Origin: an uncultured Pelagibacteraceae bacterium
GTDB taxonomy: Bacteria; Pseudomonadota; Alphaproteobacteria; Pelagibacterales; Pelagibacteraceae
Assembly: GCA_902590505.1 (NCBI GenBank)
Contig: CACIWZ010000001.1
Location: 1 to 64,000, forward strand
Reading direction: 5' to 3'
DNA length: 64,000 nt
This document shows positions 7,563 through 49,181 of the stretch, in pieces (within the stretch, counting starts at the first letter, position 1; each line of letters starts with the position of its first letter). A program made the translations under genes and the position numbers. Below the pieces are notes generated by a model. It was not told where the DNA came from. It saw only the letters and a list, made by a program, of their open reading frames with translations, and did not search any database.

Positions 7563-8561
7563 ATGAAAAACAAAATTTTAGTATTGGGAACTTCAAGTTT
7601 CGCTGGAGCAAGCATGGTAAACTTTTTATTGAATAAAAAATACAAAGTTTATGGAACGTACAGAAGAAAAAAAAATCAAATGTATCTACCTTATTTAGAA
7701 AATAAAAATTTAAAAAATTTTAAAAACTATCCTATTGATTTTAACAAATCTCCAAAAAAACTAGAAATTATTATTAAAAAATTAAAACCAGACTATATAA
7801 TTGATTTTGTTTCCATAGCAATGGTAAATCAAAGTTGGCAATTTCCAAAAGTTTATTTTGATGTAAACATTAATTATAAACTACATATTTTTCAAAATTT
7901 AAATACATTCAATTTTATTAAAAAATATATACTAATTTCGACACCTGAAATATTTGGTGATAACAAAAAAACTCTCAAAGAGGAAAGCTATATTTTTAAC
8001 CCCAGTACGCCCTATGCTATTTCAAAATTAGGCACGGAGCTTTTACTGAAGTGTTATGCAAAAAGATATAATATTCCGTTTGTTATTACCAGATTTACAA
8101 ACTTTTATGGTCCGGGGCAACCAATCTATAGATTAATTCCAAAAATATTAGCTTGCATTGAAAAAAAAATCAAATTTCCTCTTGAAGGTGGTGGCAACTC
8201 TAGTAGAAATTTTATTTACACTTTTGATTTCTGCAACGGTATTTACAAAGCTATGCTTAAAGGAAAAAATTTCGATACTTATCATTTTTCAAGTAACAAG
8301 TACTACAAAATTAAAGAAATAGTAAAAATCATATGCTCTATGAAAAAGATTGATCATAGGATTCTTATTAAAAAAACCAAGTCTAGAGTTGGTCAAGATG
8401 ATATATATAAATTAAATAGCAATAAGACTCGTAAAATACTTAAATGGAAAACAATTTATTCATTACAAAAAGGCATTCAAGAAATAATTAATTACAATAA
8501 AACAAGATTTAAAAAATTTTCTAAAGAAAGCTTAGTTTATTTGGATAGAAATTTTAAATAA
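7563..8561 (+). CDS. dTDP/GDP-sugar 4,6-dehydratase-like extended SDR
   Basis: 332 residues. The N-terminus ILVLGTSSFAGASM is a degenerate dinucleotide-binding loop. Catalytic elements are LISTPEIFGD (Thr/Ser and Glu in the order seen in 4,6-dehydratases) and YAISK (YxxxK). TRFTNFYGPGQ and EGGGNSSRNFIYTFDFCNGI are standard nucleotide-sugar-binding segments of RmlB/GMD-like enzymes. Immediately follows the MDR gene with no spacer. It probably dehydrates or epimerises a nucleotide hexose for the glycan; the nucleotide cannot be told from sequence. Confidence 0.78.
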   Translation: MKNKILVLGTSSFAGASMVNFLLNKKYKVYGTYRRKKNQMYLPYLENKNLKNFKNYPIDFNKSPKKLEIIIKKLKPDYIIDFVSIAMVNQSWQFPKVYFDVNINYKLHIFQNLNTFNFIKKYILISTPEIFGDNKKTLKEESYIFNPSTPYAISKLGTELLLKCYAKRYNIPFVITRFTNFYGPGQPIYRLIPKILACIEKKIKFPLEGGGNSSRNFIYTFDFCNGIYKAMLKGKNFDTYHFSSNKYYKIKEIVKIICSMKKIDHRILIKKTKSRVGQDDIYKLNSNKTRKILKWKTIYSLQKGIQEIINYNKTRFKKFSKESLVYLDRNFK

Positions 8562-11392: not shown

Positions 11393-13120
11393 ATGTCTTT
11401 AAAAACTTTATTCGTAGTTTATGACAACGGTTCTTATGATCACCATTTTCCAATGGGAATAGGTTCTTTAGCAGCAGTGTTAAAGCAGGATGGTCATGAC
11501 TTACATTTTTGGCATCAAGATATGCACCACTGGGCTGACGATAAACTTCGAACCTTTTTAGATGAAAACGAATTTGACGTTGTGGTGTTTAGCTTAATTG
11601 CAGGCTACTACCAGTACCTTAAAATGAAAAGTCTGTCAGAAGCTATTAACAAATCTAAAAATAGATCAAAATTCAAATATGTAATGGGAGGGTATGGACC
11701 TTCCCCTGAACCAGAATTCTTTTTAAGAAAATCTGGATGTGATATAGTTTCAATGGGCGAAGGTGAAGTTTCAGTTACAAAACTATTCAAAGCGTTTGAG
11801 AATAATACACCCCTCAAAGACGTTCCAGGAATTGCTTGGCTTGAAAATGATAAACTTCAAACAACACCCAGAGCAGCTTTGGTTCCAGACTTGGACTCTT
11901 TACCACCTATCCCATACGAGCTTTTCCCAATGGAGTATTATAGATTAATGCGAATGCCGCACGCTCAAGCGACTGACTTTGTTTTTCCAATTATGTCAGC
12001 AAGGGGTTGTTCTTTTAAATGTACTTTTTGCTATAGAATGGATCCAGGTTATAGAAAAAGAAAACCAGGTCCATTACTGGATGAAGTAGAGATGTTATAT
12101 AAAGACTACGGAATTAATTATGTTACTTTTCAAGACGATCTTCTAATGTCCTCGGTTAAACACACAGAAGATGTTTGTTTAGAATTTTTAAAAAGAGATT
12201 TACCTGTCAAATGGTCTTGTAATGGGAGACTTAATTATTGCAGTGAGGAGTTATTACAACTCATGAAAGATGCAGGATGTGTATTTATTAATTACGGTAT
12301 TGAAAGTATGGATCAAAAAGTTTTAAACAATATGAAGAAAGGTCTAAGACCAGAAATGATTATTCAAGGCATAGAAGATACCTTAAAGGTTGGGATTAGT
12401 CCCGGTCTGAACTTCATCTTTGGAAATAAAGGCGACAACAAAGAAACAATTAAAAAAGCTGTAAATTTTTTACTTAAATACGATGATTTTGCTCAGAAAA
12501 GAACAATACGACCGGTGACCCCTTATCCTGGCTCACCTTTATATTACGATGCTATAGAAATGGGATCAATCGATAAAAATAATCCAGCTGAAGATTTTTA
12601 CGAGAGAAAACACCTTAATTCAGATCTGATTTGCACAAATTTTACAGAGCTGACTGATGAAGAGTACTACGAGTGTTTAAGATGGGCAAATCAAACATTA
12701 ATGAAAAATTATTATGATAAACAAAGAGATGGGACAATGAAACAAATAGATTATCTTTACACAACTCTTGATACCTCCTTCAGAGGCTTTAGACACAGCG
12801 CTGGAAGCGGAAAAACTGGCGATGTTACTAACGACAATAAAAAAGCGATTTTATATGAGAAAAGTAAAAAAAAAACAATGTTACAAGGAAACGAAGTTAT
12901 GGATGGTCTTGTTAACTGGGAAAACACATCTTCTGATGGTGATAGGTTTTCTCAAACAAATATTCAGGGAACAAAAAATGGTAAATCAGTTAAAAGTTAC
13001 GAGATCTACTTGAAAAGAAAAGAATTCAGAGCAGCACAGAAAATTGCAAAAAGAAAGAACGAAGTTAAAGAAAAGCTACTTAATAAAGATTTAAAAAACA
13101 CATCGCTGATAGTCCAGTAA
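11393..13120 (+). CDS. B12-binding-domain radical SAM protein (first copy)
   Basis: 575 residues. The N-terminal ~150 residues look like a cobalamin-binding Rossmann domain (SLAAVLKQDGHDLHFW; YVMGGYGPSPEPEFFLR; VSMGEGEVSV). The radical SAM cluster motif is RGCSFKCTFCY with Cys 206, 210 and 213 (CxxxCxxC). Family members methylate or rearrange unactivated carbons using SAM and cobalamin. The classic DxHxxG base-off motif is not obvious, as is usual in this class. An 81 bp gap precedes it, and base composition looks less A-rich than the surrounding glycan genes. The tail (about 430-575) is Lys-rich and of unknown role. Confidence 0.85.
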   Translation: MSLKTLFVVYDNGSYDHHFPMGIGSLAAVLKQDGHDLHFWHQDMHHWADDKLRTFLDENEFDVVVFSLIAGYYQYLKMKSLSEAINKSKNRSKFKYVMGGYGPSPEPEFFLRKSGCDIVSMGEGEVSVTKLFKAFENNTPLKDVPGIAWLENDKLQTTPRAALVPDLDSLPPIPYELFPMEYYRLMRMPHAQATDFVFPIMSARGCSFKCTFCYRMDPGYRKRKPGPLLDEVEMLYKDYGINYVTFQDDLLMSSVKHTEDVCLEFLKRDLPVKWSCNGRLNYCSEELLQLMKDAGCVFINYGIESMDQKVLNNMKKGLRPEMIIQGIEDTLKVGISPGLNFIFGNKGDNKETIKKAVNFLLKYDDFAQKRTIRPVTPYPGSPLYYDAIEMGSIDKNNPAEDFYERKHLNSDLICTNFTELTDEEYYECLRWANQTLMKNYYDKQRDGTMKQIDYLYTTLDTSFRGFRHSAGSGKTGDVTNDNKKAILYEKSKKKTMLQGNEVMDGLVNWENTSSDGDRFSQTNIQGTKNGKSVKSYEIYLKRKEFRAAQKIAKRKNEVKEKLLNKDLKNTSLIVQ

Positions 13121-34033: not shown

Positions 34034-35650
34034 ATGGATAAAGGAATTAAAGTTTTATTTTTGTACCCAAATACTTTTGGTATGAACATGTTACCTCCAG
34101 CTATTGCTTTGTTTTCAGCAATTTTAAAAAAAGAGGGTCATCAGACCAAAATTTTTGATACGACTTATTATGCGACTGATCACGGAATCGACTCTGATGG
34201 ATCAAAAGAACAAGCCTTGAACGTAGTTCCCTATCAAAAGGAAATGGATAAGAAAGGTTTAAGAATTAAAGACACAAGTTGGAAAAAAGATTTAAAAGAA
34301 CTTGTAGAAGACTATAAACCAGATATCTTTATACTTTCTTCAACAGAGGATATGTGGGAACTGGGTATGAGAATTCTTGATGAGCTTAAAGATTTTAAAA
34401 AAGAAAATAATACCCCAGTATTGGCAGGAGGAGTTTTTCCAACTTTTGCTCCTGAAATATGCATTAAATACGATTTAGTTGACATGATTTGTGTTGGTGA
34501 AGGCGAAGTAGCATTAGTAGATGTTTGTGAAAGAGTAAAAAAAAATCAAAATTTTTTTGGAGTTACCAATCTATGGGTAAAAAAAAAGGATGGAGAGATT
34601 GAAAAAAATGAAATAACAAAACCAGTCGACATAAATAATAATCCGATGATAGATACATCACTCTTTGAAGAAGCTAGACTTTATAGACCCATGGCAGGAA
34701 AGGTTTATAAGATGTATCCAATTGAAACAATCAGAGGATGTCCTTACACTTGTAAATTTTGCAATTCACCGGATCAAATGAAATTATATAAAGGCTTAGG
34801 ACATAGTTTTTTCAGAAAAAAAAGAATTGATTTAGTTTATAAGGAATTAAAGTATTTTAAAGAAATACATAAAGTGGAATACAACTATTTTTGGGCTGAC
34901 ACATTTCTAGCTATGAACAAAAAAGAATTAGACGCATTCTGTGAAATGTATAAAGAAATAAATTTACCTTTCTGGATGCAAACAAGACCTGAGACTGTAA
35001 ATGATGACAATATAAGTAAATTGTCAAAAGTAGGTTTACACAGAATATCTTTTGGAGTGGAACATGGCAATGAAGAATTTAGAGCCAAGATTTTAGACCG
35101 TAGATGGAAAAATAAGGATATTATTGAGAGATTGAAAATTCCACACAAATACGGTGTAGCTTTCAGTGTAAATAATATTACTGGATTTCCAACTGAAACA
35201 AAAAAACTTGCTTTTGACACTATTGAACTTAATAGGCATATAGAGGCTGACAATGCTAATATTTACTCTTTTGTTCCTTTCCATGGAACTCCTTTGAGGA
35301 AAATGTGTGAAGAATTAGATTTAATTAAACCAGAAACAATTACAAAATGTTTAACCAACAAGCCTATATTAAATATGCCTCAATATCCGCCAGAAGAAAT
35401 TGAAGCGATTAAAAAATGTTTTGCACTTTATATCAAATTTCCAAAAAACAGGTGGAAAGAGATTGAAAGAGCAGAAAAAAACGATGCCGAAGGAAACAAA
35501 ATTTATAATAATCTTAAGCAAGAGTACTTAGATACGTACATGCCAAAGCCTGACGCAGATCCTCATGGAGGAGTAGATGAAGAGTACAATGCTGCAACAA
35601 ACGATCCAAAGAACAACATTGAAAAAAAAACCGAAAATTTAATTGCATAA
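34034..35650 (+). CDS. B12-binding-domain radical SAM protein (second copy)
   Basis: 538 residues. The N-terminal ~160 residues look like a cobalamin-binding domain (LFLYPNTFGMNMLPPAIALFSAILKKEGH; VLAGGVFPTFAPE; ICVGEGEVALVD). ETIRGCPYTCKFCNSP contains C236, C240 and C243 for the [4Fe-4S] cluster. A long C-terminal part follows the barrel. B12-dependent radical SAM enzymes methylate unactivated carbon or phosphorus or rearrange rings. It is the last gene before the cobalamin riboswitch, and its composition is less A-rich than its neighbours. Confidence 0.85.
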   Translation: MDKGIKVLFLYPNTFGMNMLPPAIALFSAILKKEGHQTKIFDTTYYATDHGIDSDGSKEQALNVVPYQKEMDKKGLRIKDTSWKKDLKELVEDYKPDIFILSSTEDMWELGMRILDELKDFKKENNTPVLAGGVFPTFAPEICIKYDLVDMICVGEGEVALVDVCERVKKNQNFFGVTNLWVKKKDGEIEKNEITKPVDINNNPMIDTSLFEEARLYRPMAGKVYKMYPIETIRGCPYTCKFCNSPDQMKLYKGLGHSFFRKKRIDLVYKELKYFKEIHKVEYNYFWADTFLAMNKKELDAFCEMYKEINLPFWMQTRPETVNDDNISKLSKVGLHRISFGVEHGNEEFRAKILDRRWKNKDIIERLKIPHKYGVAFSVNNITGFPTETKKLAFDTIELNRHIEADNANIYSFVPFHGTPLRKMCEELDLIKPETITKCLTNKPILNMPQYPPEEIEAIKKCFALYIKFPKNRWKEIERAEKNDAEGNKIYNNLKQEYLDTYMPKPDADPHGGVDEEYNAATNDPKNNIEKKTENLIA

Positions 35651-35663
35651 ATTAATTTTTTTC

Positions 35664-35692
35664 TTGATATTCACTTACCTTTAAGTTACCTT
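35664..35692 (+). promoter_or_regulatory. candidate promoter upstream of the cobalamin riboswitch
   Basis: TTGATA at 35664-35669 and TACCTT at 35687-35692 are separated by 17 bp, a sigma70-like arrangement that would start transcription at about 35699, the 5' edge of aptamer helix P1. The -10 match is weak (three of six). The same stretch holds two tandem TTACCTTTA copies complementary to the btuB ribosome-binding site. Confidence 0.3.
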
Positions 35693-35698
35693 TATCTC

Positions 35699-35810
35699 AT
35701 ACTGAAATGCATGGTGGGAAATCAGTGTGAAATTCATTGGCTGTTCCTGCAACGGTTATAGTCCGAGCGCCACCCAGTATAGTCCGCTGTTGAACAATGG
35801 CCAGGAAAAG
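35699..35810 (+). ncRNA. cobalamin riboswitch, class II (env8-like) aptamer
   Basis: The core contains GGTGGGAAATCAGTGTGAAATT, then CCTGCAACGGTTATAGTCC, then GAGCGCCACCC, the conserved cobalamin aptamer segments including the B12 box. ATACTG (35699-35704) pairs with CAGTAT (35775-35780) to close P1. Only about five bases lie between the GCAACGG and GTCCGA elements, so the large peripheral extension of class I is missing; this and the GTGGGAAA/GTGAAATTC/ACGGTTATA order match the class II env8 type known from marine DNA. It precedes btuB by about 75 bp and likely switches it off when B12 is plentiful. A kissing-loop helix may follow at about 35783-35808. Confidence 0.85.
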
Positions 35811-35885
35811 TCTAGTTCTGCAATTAAATTTAGCAGTGGCTTTTATTAACTAGAACTTAATGTTCTATAAAAGAAAGGTAAGCCA

Positions 35886-37823
35886 ATGCTGAAAAAAACT
35901 ATAACAAGTTTAATTTTTTTAATATTCATTTTCAAAAGCAGTCTATTATTTTCTGAGGACATTCCCATAATTGTCATTGCACCAAGTAAAAAACCTCAAT
36001 CAGCATCGACTGTAGGAACCTCAGTAGTAGTTCTTGATGAGGAATTTTTAAAGAATTCTAATGAGTATTTTTTAGGAGATGTTTTATCTGGAGGCACTAC
36101 TAGCGCAAATTTTTTTCAAAATGGAGGACATGGATCTACCTCTGCTATTCAATTGAGAGGATTACCTAAAAGATATTCTACTGTATACATAGATGGAGTA
36201 AAAATGTCAGACCCTTCTAGTGTTTCAGGCGATTTTGATTTTAATCACATTCTAACAAGTCAAATCTCAAGAGTTGAAATTTTAAAAGGAAATCAAAGTT
36301 CAGTTTATGGGAGCGGAGCGATCGGTGGGACAATAAATATAACAACAAAAAAAGGAAAACCAGGAACTCAAAAAAACACGATGATTAACACTGGGTCCTA
36401 CGGGACTGTAAACTATTCTGCCAGCTACTCTGGATCAGATGAAATTAATAATTTCTATATTGGTTTTGAGAAATTTCAGACTAAGGGAATGTCGGCTATG
36501 ACACATAACGATGAAAAAGATGGTTATAAGAATAATTCTTTGGTGGCAAATTACAGCAGAGAATTGGCAAATAATTTTAAAATAAAAAGTAATTTGAGAT
36601 TTTCAGACACTAACAAACAATACGATAAAGAGGTAGATACTTCCACTGCCACCCATAGCGAAGAGGAAGATAGTTTGCAGTCTTCAGCAAATTTATCTTT
36701 AGAATACAATCTTAATGAGAAATTTAATAATGAAGTTTCTTTAGCGCAAACCTATATAAAACGTATTTATAATGCTGCACCAGGTAGTGGTAACACAGTA
36801 AAAGATAATTACTATGGAGAAAGGTACAATTACGGCTACAAAGGAAATTATAACTTTGACTTAGATAATAGTATTATTTTCGGAATTGAAAGAGAGGATG
36901 ACCAAATTGGATATAACGCAAATATGACTGGTAAAAAAGTGGAGTCCTTCTATACAACTTCAAAATATTTTGATTATCAAAAGAGATTTTCAGAAAATAT
37001 TTTCGCAACTTTTGGTTCAAGATTTGACGATAATTCAGTAGCTGGCAATGAAGAAGCTCACAGAGTAACTTTTGCATACTTGTTTGATAATAAATCAACT
37101 AAAATAAAATCCTCTTATGGTACTGGCTTTAGATTTCCTTCTCTTTATGAAATGTATTATGTGTATGCTGCTAATTCTAATTCCCTTCCATTTGTAAAAG
37201 CAGAAAATAGTAAAAGTTTTGATATAGGTTTTGAAAAAAATTTTGTTGATTATGGTTTAAGTTTAGACCTTACTTATTTCAATATTGAGTATGAGAATGT
37301 TCTTGAAGGATGGAAAAATAATAATAGTTCAGGCGCAAGTTACACGACACAAAATGCTGATGGAATTGTAAAATCACAAGGGTTAGAATTAATGTCAGGT
37401 TTGAAAGTGTCAAATAATTTAAATTTTAATTTGAATTATACTTATACATCTTCATATGATGGAGCTGAACAAGATGATCCTAATAAAAATCAAAACTACA
37501 CTAATGCTCAAATGGTACGAGTGCCAAGAAATATAATCAATCTTAGAACTAATTTTCAATCTCCTAGTGATGAAAATCTAAGTTTTGTATTAAATTCAAA
37601 GTGGTCTGATATGGCTAGAGATTATGGTAATGGAAATAGAACTTATCAAGATGAGAGAATCGATGATTATTTCGTTAATGATTTATCTATAAATTACAAA
37701 CTTTGGGATAGTTATAATCTATTCTTCAATATTACTAATATATTTGATGAAAAATATGAAACCGTCAGAGATTATTCCCAGCTAGATCGCTCTTTTAATA
37801 TAGGATTAAAAAGCATATACTAA
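35886..37823 (+). CDS. btuB: BtuB-type TonB-dependent cobalamin receptor
   Basis: 645 residues with an N-terminal signal peptide (about 1-23, cleavage near LFS-ED). IPIIVIAPSKK is a plausible TonB box. The plug domain has IQLRGLPKRYSTVYIDGVKMSDPS, RVEILKGNQSSVYGSGAIGGTINITTKKG, and the remainder is an alternating beta-barrel ending in LKSIY with a terminal aromatic. The AAAGGTAAG ribosome-binding site is at 35874-35882. Moves B12 across the outer membrane using TonB energy. The riboswitch upstream supports B12 as substrate. Confidence 0.88.
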   Translation: MLKKTITSLIFLIFIFKSSLLFSEDIPIIVIAPSKKPQSASTVGTSVVVLDEEFLKNSNEYFLGDVLSGGTTSANFFQNGGHGSTSAIQLRGLPKRYSTVYIDGVKMSDPSSVSGDFDFNHILTSQISRVEILKGNQSSVYGSGAIGGTINITTKKGKPGTQKNTMINTGSYGTVNYSASYSGSDEINNFYIGFEKFQTKGMSAMTHNDEKDGYKNNSLVANYSRELANNFKIKSNLRFSDTNKQYDKEVDTSTATHSEEEDSLQSSANLSLEYNLNEKFNNEVSLAQTYIKRIYNAAPGSGNTVKDNYYGERYNYGYKGNYNFDLDNSIIFGIEREDDQIGYNANMTGKKVESFYTTSKYFDYQKRFSENIFATFGSRFDDNSVAGNEEAHRVTFAYLFDNKSTKIKSSYGTGFRFPSLYEMYYVYAANSNSLPFVKAENSKSFDIGFEKNFVDYGLSLDLTYFNIEYENVLEGWKNNNSSGASYTTQNADGIVKSQGLELMSGLKVSNNLNFNLNYTYTSSYDGAEQDDPNKNQNYTNAQMVRVPRNIINLRTNFQSPSDENLSFVLNSKWSDMARDYGNGNRTYQDERIDDYFVNDLSINYKLWDSYNLFFNITNIFDEKYETVRDYSQLDRSFNIGLKSIY

Positions 37824-37829
37824 ATTATT

Positions 37830-38315
37830 ATGAAACAAATAAATATTTGTTTAGGTATATTTCTTGCACTTGCTATTAGCAGATTTGTTCCTCATCCACC
37901 AAATTTTACAAGCTTGATTGCTTTAAGTTTTTATATACCAGTGTTTTTTGGGAGAAAATATATACCAGCAATTATTATAAGTTTTGCGATTACTGATCTT
38001 ATTATTGGACTTCATGCTGTAACTTTTTTCACATGGGGAAGTGTTCTTTTAATTGGATTAATATCTAATTATTTTTCTAAGACATTATTAAAAAGACTCT
38101 CGGGCGCTTTATTTGGAGCAGTGATATTTTTTGTATTAACTAATTTTGGGGTATGGGCTTCAGGAATGTATGGATATACTTTAAATGGAATAATTACTTG
38201 TTATACCTTAGCCATACCATTTTTTGCTTATAGTGCTATTTCTACAATACTATTTTCTTTTTTAATCGAATTTATTTATAGAAGCCTCCAATTAAAAATT
38301 GCAAAACATCAATAA
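37830..38315 (+). CDS. small polytopic membrane protein, DUF6580-like
   Basis: 161 residues with about five hydrophobic segments. SRFVPHPPNFTSLIALSFYIPVFFGRK resembles DUF6580, a family of small inner-membrane proteins often found beside B12 uptake genes in bacteria. It starts 6 bp after btuB, so is in the riboswitch-controlled unit. It may act as an ECF-like substrate-binding or accessory component for B12 transport; that role is inference and no ATPase gene is adjacent. Confidence 0.7.
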   Translation: MKQINICLGIFLALAISRFVPHPPNFTSLIALSFYIPVFFGRKYIPAIIISFAITDLIIGLHAVTFFTWGSVLLIGLISNYFSKTLLKRLSGALFGAVIFFVLTNFGVWASGMYGYTLNGIITCYTLAIPFFAYSAISTILFSFLIEFIYRSLQLKIAKHQ

Positions 38316-43252: not shown

Positions 43253-43327
43253 GGGAGTGTAGTTCAGTGGTAGAACGCTACGTTGACATCGTAGAGGCCA
43301 TAAGTTCAATTCTTATCACTCCCACCA
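43253..43327 (+). tRNA. tRNA-Val(GAC)
   Basis: 75 nt including encoded CCA. Acceptor stem GGGAGTG pairs with CACTCCC; D-arm GTTC..GAAC; anticodon stem CTACG/CGTAG closes a TTGACAT loop with anticodon GAC (Val); T-arm has TTCAATT between ATAAG and CTTAT. Abuts the preceding glycosyltransferase stop with no spacer, so maturation must occur from a longer transcript or an internal promoter in that gene. Confidence 0.96.
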
Positions 43328-43392
43328 TAATCTATTAATAAGGCTATTTTTCGCCTATTTACATCTCATTTTAAAAATAATATAAGTTTCTC

Positions 43393-43508
43393 GCCTGGTA
43401 ATTATTGCGAAGGGGCCACACCCGATCCCATTCCGAACTCGGAAGTTAAGTCCTTCAGCGCCGATGGTACTTTGTCATAAGATATGGGAGAGTAGGACGT
43501 TGCCAGGC
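43393..43508 (+). rRNA. 5S ribosomal RNA, unlinked from 16S-23S
   Basis: About 116 nt. Terminal helix GCCTGG (43393-43398) pairs with CCAGGC (43503-43508). ATCCCATTCCGAACTCGGAAG is the conserved loop/helix III region and the 3' half contains GATGGTACTTTG...GGGAGAGTAGGACG. No 23S is found upstream in this window; in Pelagibacter genomes 5S is known to be separated from 16S-23S by a hypervariable region, matching what is seen. Confidence 0.95.

Positions 43509-49104: not shown

Positions 49105-49181
<77 letters not shown>

Follow-up and report, generated by a model that had tools for sequence, protein, structure and literature searches.

The leader of a TonB-dependent receptor gene in this Pelagibacteraceae contig raises the question of what RNA is encoded there, which form of cobalamin it would recognise, and how it would control the genes that follow it. 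In the window (the whole 64,000-nucleotide stretch of DNA that was analysed), a first-pass annotation had placed a class II cobalamin riboswitch at 35,699-35,810, likened it to env8 (which we take to be class II as well), and described it as lacking the large insertion of class I and lying beside its target gene. A cmscan search returned a match to RF01689 (AdoCbl-II, the class II cobalamin riboswitch) at 35,699-35,780 on the + strand, covering model positions 1-81 of 81 with 101.4 bits and an E-value of 5e-25 (gathering score, 36.5 bits), and the only above-gathering matches elsewhere in the 64 kb were a 5S rRNA and two tRNAs. A permissive rescan of 35,500-36,000 gave the same RF01689 match along with two others at E 2 and 7.6, with one lower-scoring, overlapping match from the same clan omitted unnamed. 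The class I model, RF00174, found no match at E <= 0.001 in the window's genome (17 contigs, 1.04 Mb, 89.94% complete, for which absences are provisional) in a search whose E. coli control was matched, and this rules out the class I reading. Comparison of the two class scores was the test named beforehand, and it bears out the class II assignment; likewise, the aptamer measures 82 nt with no large insert relative to the RF01689 model, the core sequence blocks quoted in the annotation are found on the + strand, and the gene adjoining the switch encodes a BtuB-like receptor. The original interval stands for the aptamer itself, and the remainder of it reaches only the 5' part of a hairpin, P13, ending one base past the hairpin loop. 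The observation of a class II cobalamin riboswitch is confirmed, and the RNA is a further member of an already described Rfam family from marine sequence.

This aptamer is the single RF01689 match in the window's genome. With the general numbering scheme for cobalamin riboswitches (PMC10907184), applied to this RNA by our own assignment, its helices are P1 (35,699-35,704/35,775-35,780), P3 (35,713-35,717/35,770-35,774), P4 (35,723-35,727/35,735-35,739), P5 (35,742-35,744/35,749-35,751) and P6 (35,753-35,755/35,763-35,765), all on the + strand, and the leader extends beyond the aptamer to a start codon at 35,886. Table 1 of Weinberg et al. (2010) describes the AdoCbl-II or AdoCbl-variant family as a marine, cis-regulatory switch and gives its taxa only as 'Marine' (PMC2864571). 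The present RNA has the same minimal aptamer, matched over its full length, without differences and likewise of marine source, whereas the copy in the window sits in a genome together with its operon.

Matches to RF01689 above the cut-off were found in 24 of the 151 genomes of the genus, including the window's own; one further match of 25.6 bits, under the cut-off, was dropped because no receptor or DUF6580 cluster member lay nearby (L025). In order to assess the structure, 23 of the 24 genus leaders were aligned from P1 to a downstream element termed E2, with the remaining leader (L014) omitted for an unreadable start region; that leader is also absent from the E2 tests and the pair counts and is present in the loop listing. 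The structure tested comprised the aptamer, P13 and a helix between elements E1 and E2, 35 pairs in all, and was 97.0% paired in the 23 leaders, with two-sided changes in 14 of the 35 pairs. Shuffled alignments, which ignore kinship, averaged 4.5 two-sided pairs, and none of 500 reached 14. Sliding the partner strand by one to three columns, a control that corrects for kinship, left 32-50% of cells paired and one to three two-sided pairs. As 24 of 151 genomes carry the match and covariation lies far above the slid-strand control, the aptamer is more than a chance resemblance, and the conserved helices of the RF01689 aptamer are backed by covariation. Within the genus, P6 is enlarged in three members (L022, L023 and L024), and enlargements of a like kind occur in several leaders of a second set drawn from named genomes.

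Downstream of the aptamer, P13 spans 35,792-35,818 (+) with its loop L13 (CAGGAAAA) at 35,802-35,809. Its outer 4-bp stem is 100% paired in the 23 sequences, one position showing two-sided change (UA in 10, UG in 9, CG in 4), and its inner pairs are 91-100% paired. The loop L5 (UCCUG, 35,745-35,749, + strand) would be the kissing partner of L13, as four Watson-Crick pairs between the two loops are possible in all 56 leaders in which both could be read, either as CCUG:CAGG or as CCCG:CGGG, the latter in two near-identical leaders, one of them among the 23 aligned. These 56 come from a listing of 57 leaders, with one excluded because its match begins inside the aptamer (L126), and as the search pattern for L5 itself demanded CCUG or CCCG, the free test lies on the L13 side only. 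The loops vary little: one compensatory pair was observed, in one of the 23 aligned sequences, and the measures of pairing partly exceed those of shuffles (11 to 500 of 500). A fifth pair (U-A) would form in only 10 of the 23. The loop UGAAAUU (35,728-35,734) was also considered as a partner for L13 and rejected, since no compensation appeared when both loops were listed and UCCUG of the next hairpin was the complementary one. A P13 hairpin and an L5-L13 kissing loop are common to this RNA and to env8 (PDB 4FRG/4FRN) (PMC10907184).

The form of cobalamin bound by the RNA was considered from the content of the genome. Matches to NrdJ, to the adenosyltransferases PF01923 and PF02572, and to FecCD/BtuC, QueG and EcfT were all absent from the ~90% complete genome. 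Three proteins carry an above-cut-off B12-binding match, all three with a radical SAM domain, and a fourth, weak match is an IMP dehydrogenase of ~361 aa, as presumably are the other sub-cut-off matches of ~361 aa in the genus. Since the B12-binding domain is part of both methionine synthase and methylmalonyl-CoA mutase, these enzymes would be expected among its matches. The B12-binding radical SAM protein of 538 aa encoded just upstream of the switch (34,034-35,650, + strand; PF02310 at 38.8 bits and PF04055 at 69.4 bits, both over the cut-off) is a possible consumer of imported B12. A second such protein, of 575 aa, is encoded at 11,393-13,120 (+), ~22.6 kb upstream of the riboswitch.

Across the genus, an above-cut-off B12-binding match is present in 35 of the 151 genomes, distributed as 22 of the 27 genomes that have the riboswitch or DUF6580 and 13 of the 124 others (Fisher 5e-13, uncorrected for kinship); the other five of the 27 lack such a match, in genomes that are incomplete. 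The switch has a B12-binding match within 10 kb in 16 of the 24 genomes that carry it, two of these matches being below the cut-off, and a Pfam scan of ten such proteins identified nine as B12-binding radical SAM proteins and one as an IMP dehydrogenase. B12-dependent radical SAM enzymes are thus the likely consumers.

Adenosylcobalamin as the ligand is suggested by the Rfam family name, and related class II RNAs that prefer this form exist. The absence of matches to NrdJ and to the PF01923 and PF02572 adenosyltransferases argues the other way, as does the fact that the above-cut-off B12-binding proteins of this genome are of radical SAM types, since B12-binding radical SAM proteins use methyl- or hydroxocobalamin. 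The hydroxocobalamin contained in the env8 structures (PMC10907184) was counted against adenosylcobalamin as well, and we consider this ligand unlikely. Because the probable consumers are B12-dependent radical SAM enzymes, the genome context leans towards methyl- or hydroxocobalamin as the likelier ligand.

The genes that follow the switch form a short operon. The first, at 35,886-37,823 (+), encodes a TonB-dependent receptor of 645 aa with PF07715 and PF00593 domains, for which the best NCBIfam model is TIGR01779 (TonB-B12) at 187.9 bits; as this falls below the equivalog cut-off of 599.7, we name the receptor BtuB-like rather than a certified BtuB. In the PDB its best E-value is to the colicin I receptor, over residues 27-449 only, with BtuB chains next in rank and aligned over 29-639. 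Receptors under the same riboswitch fall into two sequence clusters of 13 and 10 members, with the window's receptor in the first, and the one member of the second cluster that was searched has BtuB as its best PDB match. The second gene (37,830-38,315, + strand) encodes DUF6580 (PF20221, Pfam E 2e-26), a six-helix membrane protein that is the predicted inner-membrane B12 importer. The order riboswitch, receptor and DUF6580 on a single strand is found in 21 of the 24 loci; in one, DUF6580 lies nearby on the opposite strand, and two are unreadable beyond the leader or inside the receptor gene owing to runs of N.

DUF6580 occurs in 25 of the 151 genus genomes and the riboswitch in 24, with both in 22 (Fisher 4e-21, uncorrected for kinship). 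Both of the genomes with the riboswitch alone are the loci with runs of N. Among the three with DUF6580 alone, one has a riboswitch cut by the contig end (42.6 bits), another has a partial DUF6580 match with an internal stop and no riboswitch match in the scanned stretch, and the third (L188, genome G067) has DUF6580 behind a frame judged by eye to be receptor-like and no riboswitch match; here the leader may have been lost, making this a natural variant without the switch.

An AlphaFold2 model of DUF6580, built from a 22-sequence alignment, shows six helices with a pLDDT of 89.8. The best 17 VIA-align matches to this model are all S-components of ECF transporters or CbiM, at Z 11.7-14.2 with 144-156 of 161 residues aligned, and the next match after them falls to Z 7.1. 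Most of the 17 were assigned from their titles, and a few, identified by chain, are presumably S-components or CbiM. Scores of this size call for caution, since the best Z was ~14 even for predominantly helical models that had no clear match; the assignment of the fold depends on the consistency of the top-ranked structures and on the drop in Z after them. Foldseek likewise ranked S-components first, with E-values that are not significant (best 0.8), and DUF6580 has no sequence match in the PDB at E up to 10. The modelling therefore predicts a six-helix S-component fold for DUF6580, and nothing points to operation with an ECF module, PF02361 (EcfT) having no match in the ~90% complete genome.

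The nearest known counterpart is BtuM, a solitary B12 S-component for which B12 uptake has been proposed without an ECF module and in which the cobalt ligand is Cys80 (PMC6072759). DUF6580 shares the S-component fold with BtuM at the level of prediction; it differs in forming a separate Pfam family and in lacking a counterpart to the axial cysteine, as no Cys is invariant among the 22 DUF6580 sequences aligned, in which His22, a proposed cobalt ligand, is invariant. BtuM is not among the VIA-align matches listed, which is no evidence against kinship.

The closest DUF6580 relatives in named genomes belong to Candidatus Pelagibacter or Pelagibacteraceae, at 71% identity and below. In order to follow the family further, 36 of the best 80 DUF6580 loci were scanned (L151-L187 without L180), mostly lower-ranked and non-Pelagibacter; this is a biased sample of the family, as the search pattern demanded PHPPNFT or NFGVW and only the best 80 loci were taken. 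A cobalamin riboswitch of either class lies beside DUF6580 in 28 of the 36, in 20 of these at 2.15-2.57 kb upstream with a receptor match between, and in the other eight the receptor match is 3' of DUF6580 and the riboswitch lies between the two. Every one of the 28 riboswitch loci has a receptor match, and the eight loci without a riboswitch have none. The 28 come from a range of sources, SAR116, Omnitrophota and a flavobacterium among them. Class I riboswitches occur in SAR116 and elsewhere, the flavobacterial MAG has class II, and of two Pelagibacteraceae records one has class II and another class I; the control element changes class while the genes stay.

Several of these loci are of interest in their own right. 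In the two Pelagibacteraceae records (L186 and L187, one with a class I and the other with a class II riboswitch), DUF6580 is only 40-43% identical to that of the window, and identity to the window's proteins in L187 is 64% for the receptor against 43% for DUF6580, which suggests from sequence identities that the receptor and DUF6580 genes do not always travel together. The flavobacterial MAG (L185) has a class II riboswitch with SAR11-like P13, E1 and E2 and a receptor that shares 45% identity with the window's, possibly through inter-phylum transfer or through mis-binning of the contig. In a SAR86 MAG (L169), an IMES-1 RNA (RF02034, 123.1 bits) lies at 8,030-8,222, downstream of DUF6580.

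That DUF6580 imports B12 is our inference, as is B12 as its substrate. The protein might instead be a sensor, for example, or import a related compound, and be linked to B12 uptake by no more than its place in the operon, with the riboswitch class assigned correctly all the same. The S-component fold is common to receptors and importers (PMC11109136), and eight of the 36 further loci have no cobalamin riboswitch in the stretch examined, both of which would suit such a role. These same eight also lack the receptor match, whereas the other 28, across SAR116, Omnitrophota, a flavobacterium and others, pair DUF6580 with a cobalamin riboswitch and a related receptor, and the ~90% complete genome has neither FecCD/BtuC nor EcfT. 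A function other than B12 import consequently appears rather improbable.

The surroundings of the operon also bear on where in the genome it sits. To its right, the window has RNA genes within 43,253-43,508 and 49,108-49,181. A tRNA and a 5S rRNA have no other rRNA gene of the window near them, and a further tRNA on the - strand borders the next gene block. The tRNA and 5S rRNA lie at the right-hand side of a ~43-kb run of + strand genes, the portion of which that was examined resembles sugar or polysaccharide genes. In two relatives, the contig position of DUF6580 is near the 3' end of the 23S gene. Because the isolated 5S and tRNA genes lie downstream of a long run of + strand genes, the cassette is taken to be in a SAR11 variable region next to rRNA genes. 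A survey of two cultured Ca. P. ubique genomes counted zero TonB-dependent receptors in them (PMC3400609), which fits an accessory trait carried by some SAR11 (24 of 151 genomes).

On balance we lean towards DUF6580 being an unrecognised family of solitary, S-component-like cobalamin importers, which would combine with a BtuB-like receptor, under a cobalamin riboswitch of interchangeable class (I or II), into a mobile two-gene B12-uptake cassette. In SAR11 this cassette would sit in variable regions, supply B12-dependent radical SAM enzymes instead of methionine synthase or mutases, and be controlled at the level of translation, where transcript surveys would miss it.

How the riboswitch would act on this operon was examined in the leader downstream of P13. 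No terminator-like site is present at 35,550-35,950, which leads us to reject a transcription-attenuation platform and favours translational control, and a translational switch is the simplest reading. Three elements on the + strand bear on such a switch: E1 (CCGCUGUUG, 35,784-35,792), highly conserved between P1 and P13 and a possible anti-sequestering partner of E2; E2 itself (AGCAGUGGCUU, 35,832-35,842), the putative sequestering element, complementary to the start region of its own gene; and E3 (AAGCCAAUGCU, 35,880-35,890), the surroundings of the start codon that E2 could cover. An SD-like AAAGG, recognised by eye, lies just 5' of E3 at 35,874-35,878. At the window locus, the predicted duplex between E2 and the start region has an energy of -13.6 kcal/mol.

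E2 mostly reads CANNGGC with its neighbours, and its variants accompany variants of the start region: AGCAGUGGC occurs with GCCAAUGCU or GCCACAUGC, CAUCGGC with GCCGAU or GCUGAU, and CAACGGC with GCCGUU or GCUGUU. Over the 23 leaders, E2 pairs with its own start region at a mean of -9.9 kcal/mol, compared to -7.9 when start regions are permuted among leaders (0 of 100,000 permutations as low) and -4.0 when they are shuffled (0 of 1,000 as low). The second leader set, taken from named genomes with start codons placed by a fixed rule (33 of 34 used, L177 omitted for a weak profile match), gave -7.77 kcal/mol for E2 with its own start region against -6.36 permuted (0 of 100,000) and -4.19 shuffled (0 of 1,000). 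After thinning by similarity, the permutation result was 0 of 100,000 with 29 of the 56 leaders retained and 31 of 100,000 with nine retained. In 53 of 56 leaders the predicted duplex overlaps positions -8 to +3, and in 51 its energy is -5 kcal/mol or lower. Per locus the signal is uneven, as the own start region ranks first of 23 at only two loci, and at 12 of the 23 the start region is bound equally well or better by a rival 12-nt stretch of the leader that does not overlap E2 (91 of 3,010 stretches pooled); at the other 11, the window's included, no such stretch matches E2. The signal from E2 resides in the set, not in every locus.

The competing helix between E1 and E2 may serve as the alternative structure. 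In the 23 leaders 92% of its cells are paired with zero two-sided changes, its permutation test over 56 leaders gave 1,792 of 100,000 (1.8%), and E1 pairs with E2 in two registers that fit different sequences. In constrained folding, the form with E1 unpaired was on average 5.3 kcal/mol lower than the form in which E1:E2 was forced. In three of the 23 leaders, forcing the ON form did not make the start region any more accessible, while at the other loci it is the constraints themselves that favour the outcome. Since the E1-unpaired form is the more stable in the models, an ON state would need kinetic or co-transcriptional trapping.

The direction of this switch could in principle be reversed, with ligand turning the operon ON through docking that stabilises P13 and a stacked E1:E2 helix and thereby frees the start codon. 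E1:E2 would stack directly upon P13, and the greater stability of the form without E1:E2 is what a default-OFF switch predicts. A scarce vitamin normally represses the genes for its own uptake, and their activation when B12 is abundant would be wasteful, for which reason we judge an ON-switch to be quite improbable. By analogy with other uptake riboswitches, the ligand would instead turn the operon OFF.

The RBS of env8 is located in the P13 loop and is hidden by docking (PMC10907184), whereas the L13 of the window is far upstream of the gene and contains no RBS, and a separate element matches the start region; the likeness to env8 proposed in the first-pass annotation therefore holds for the aptamer, P13 and the kissing loop and fails for the output. 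A switch of that type, in which P13 docking alone regulates through an RBS in L13, would share the aptamer class, the rightly placed P13 hairpin and the complementary L5 and L13, and is nevertheless highly unlikely here, given that 76 nt separate the end of L13 from the start codon at 35,886, that the SD-like site is at 35,874-35,878, and that E2 fits the start regions across 56 leaders.

The reading we prefer, to which we give a probability of roughly three in four, is that the class II cobalamin riboswitch responds to abundant cobalamin by repressing the translation of an operon for B12 import. The ligand would bind the junction of P3 to P6 and stabilise the docking of P13 onto L5 through the CCUG:CAGG kissing loop, which would leave E2 free to cover the receptor gene's spacer and start codon by pairing and so block ribosomes from starting (OFF). 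In the absence of ligand, E1, located between P1 and P13, would capture E2 and keep the start region open (ON). The products of the operon would be the BtuB-like outer-membrane receptor and DUF6580, the latter acting as a solitary, S-component-like inner-membrane importer in place of BtuCDF, and the imported B12 would feed B12-dependent radical SAM enzymes that are often encoded nearby. The E. coli btuB riboswitch also precedes a BtuB-type receptor gene, which it controls at translation initiation (PMC11162775), the level proposed for the window's switch; the E. coli aptamer is class I (RF00174), whereas the window's genome has no RF00174 match.

Earlier work gives little indication of such a switch in SAR11. 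A 2009 paper on the structured RNAs of Ca. P. ubique mentions neither cobalamin nor AdoCbl in its main text (PMC2704228), and a 2007 survey of three metagenomes reported B12 riboswitches before btuB, with no evident link to SAR11 in its account of them (PMC2211319). A literature search, which left subscription journals mostly uncovered, found no title or abstract start describing a switch of this kind in SAR11, which is not proof of absence, and a search by name found no paper naming DUF6580.

SAR11 are among the most abundant bacteria of the ocean. In a 2022 mesocosm study, the B12 regulation of SAR11 btuB transcription was stated to be unknown, and no downregulated SAR11 btuB transcripts were identified in the results given there (PMC9296465). 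A riboswitch acting on translation would be a direct and testable answer, and could explain the missing response of btuB transcripts. The uptake cassette is the more interesting part of these findings than the membership of the riboswitch in its family. If DUF6580 is a B12 importer, an as yet unnamed family would acquire a candidate function and could serve as a marker of B12 scavenging in organisms without BtuCDF.
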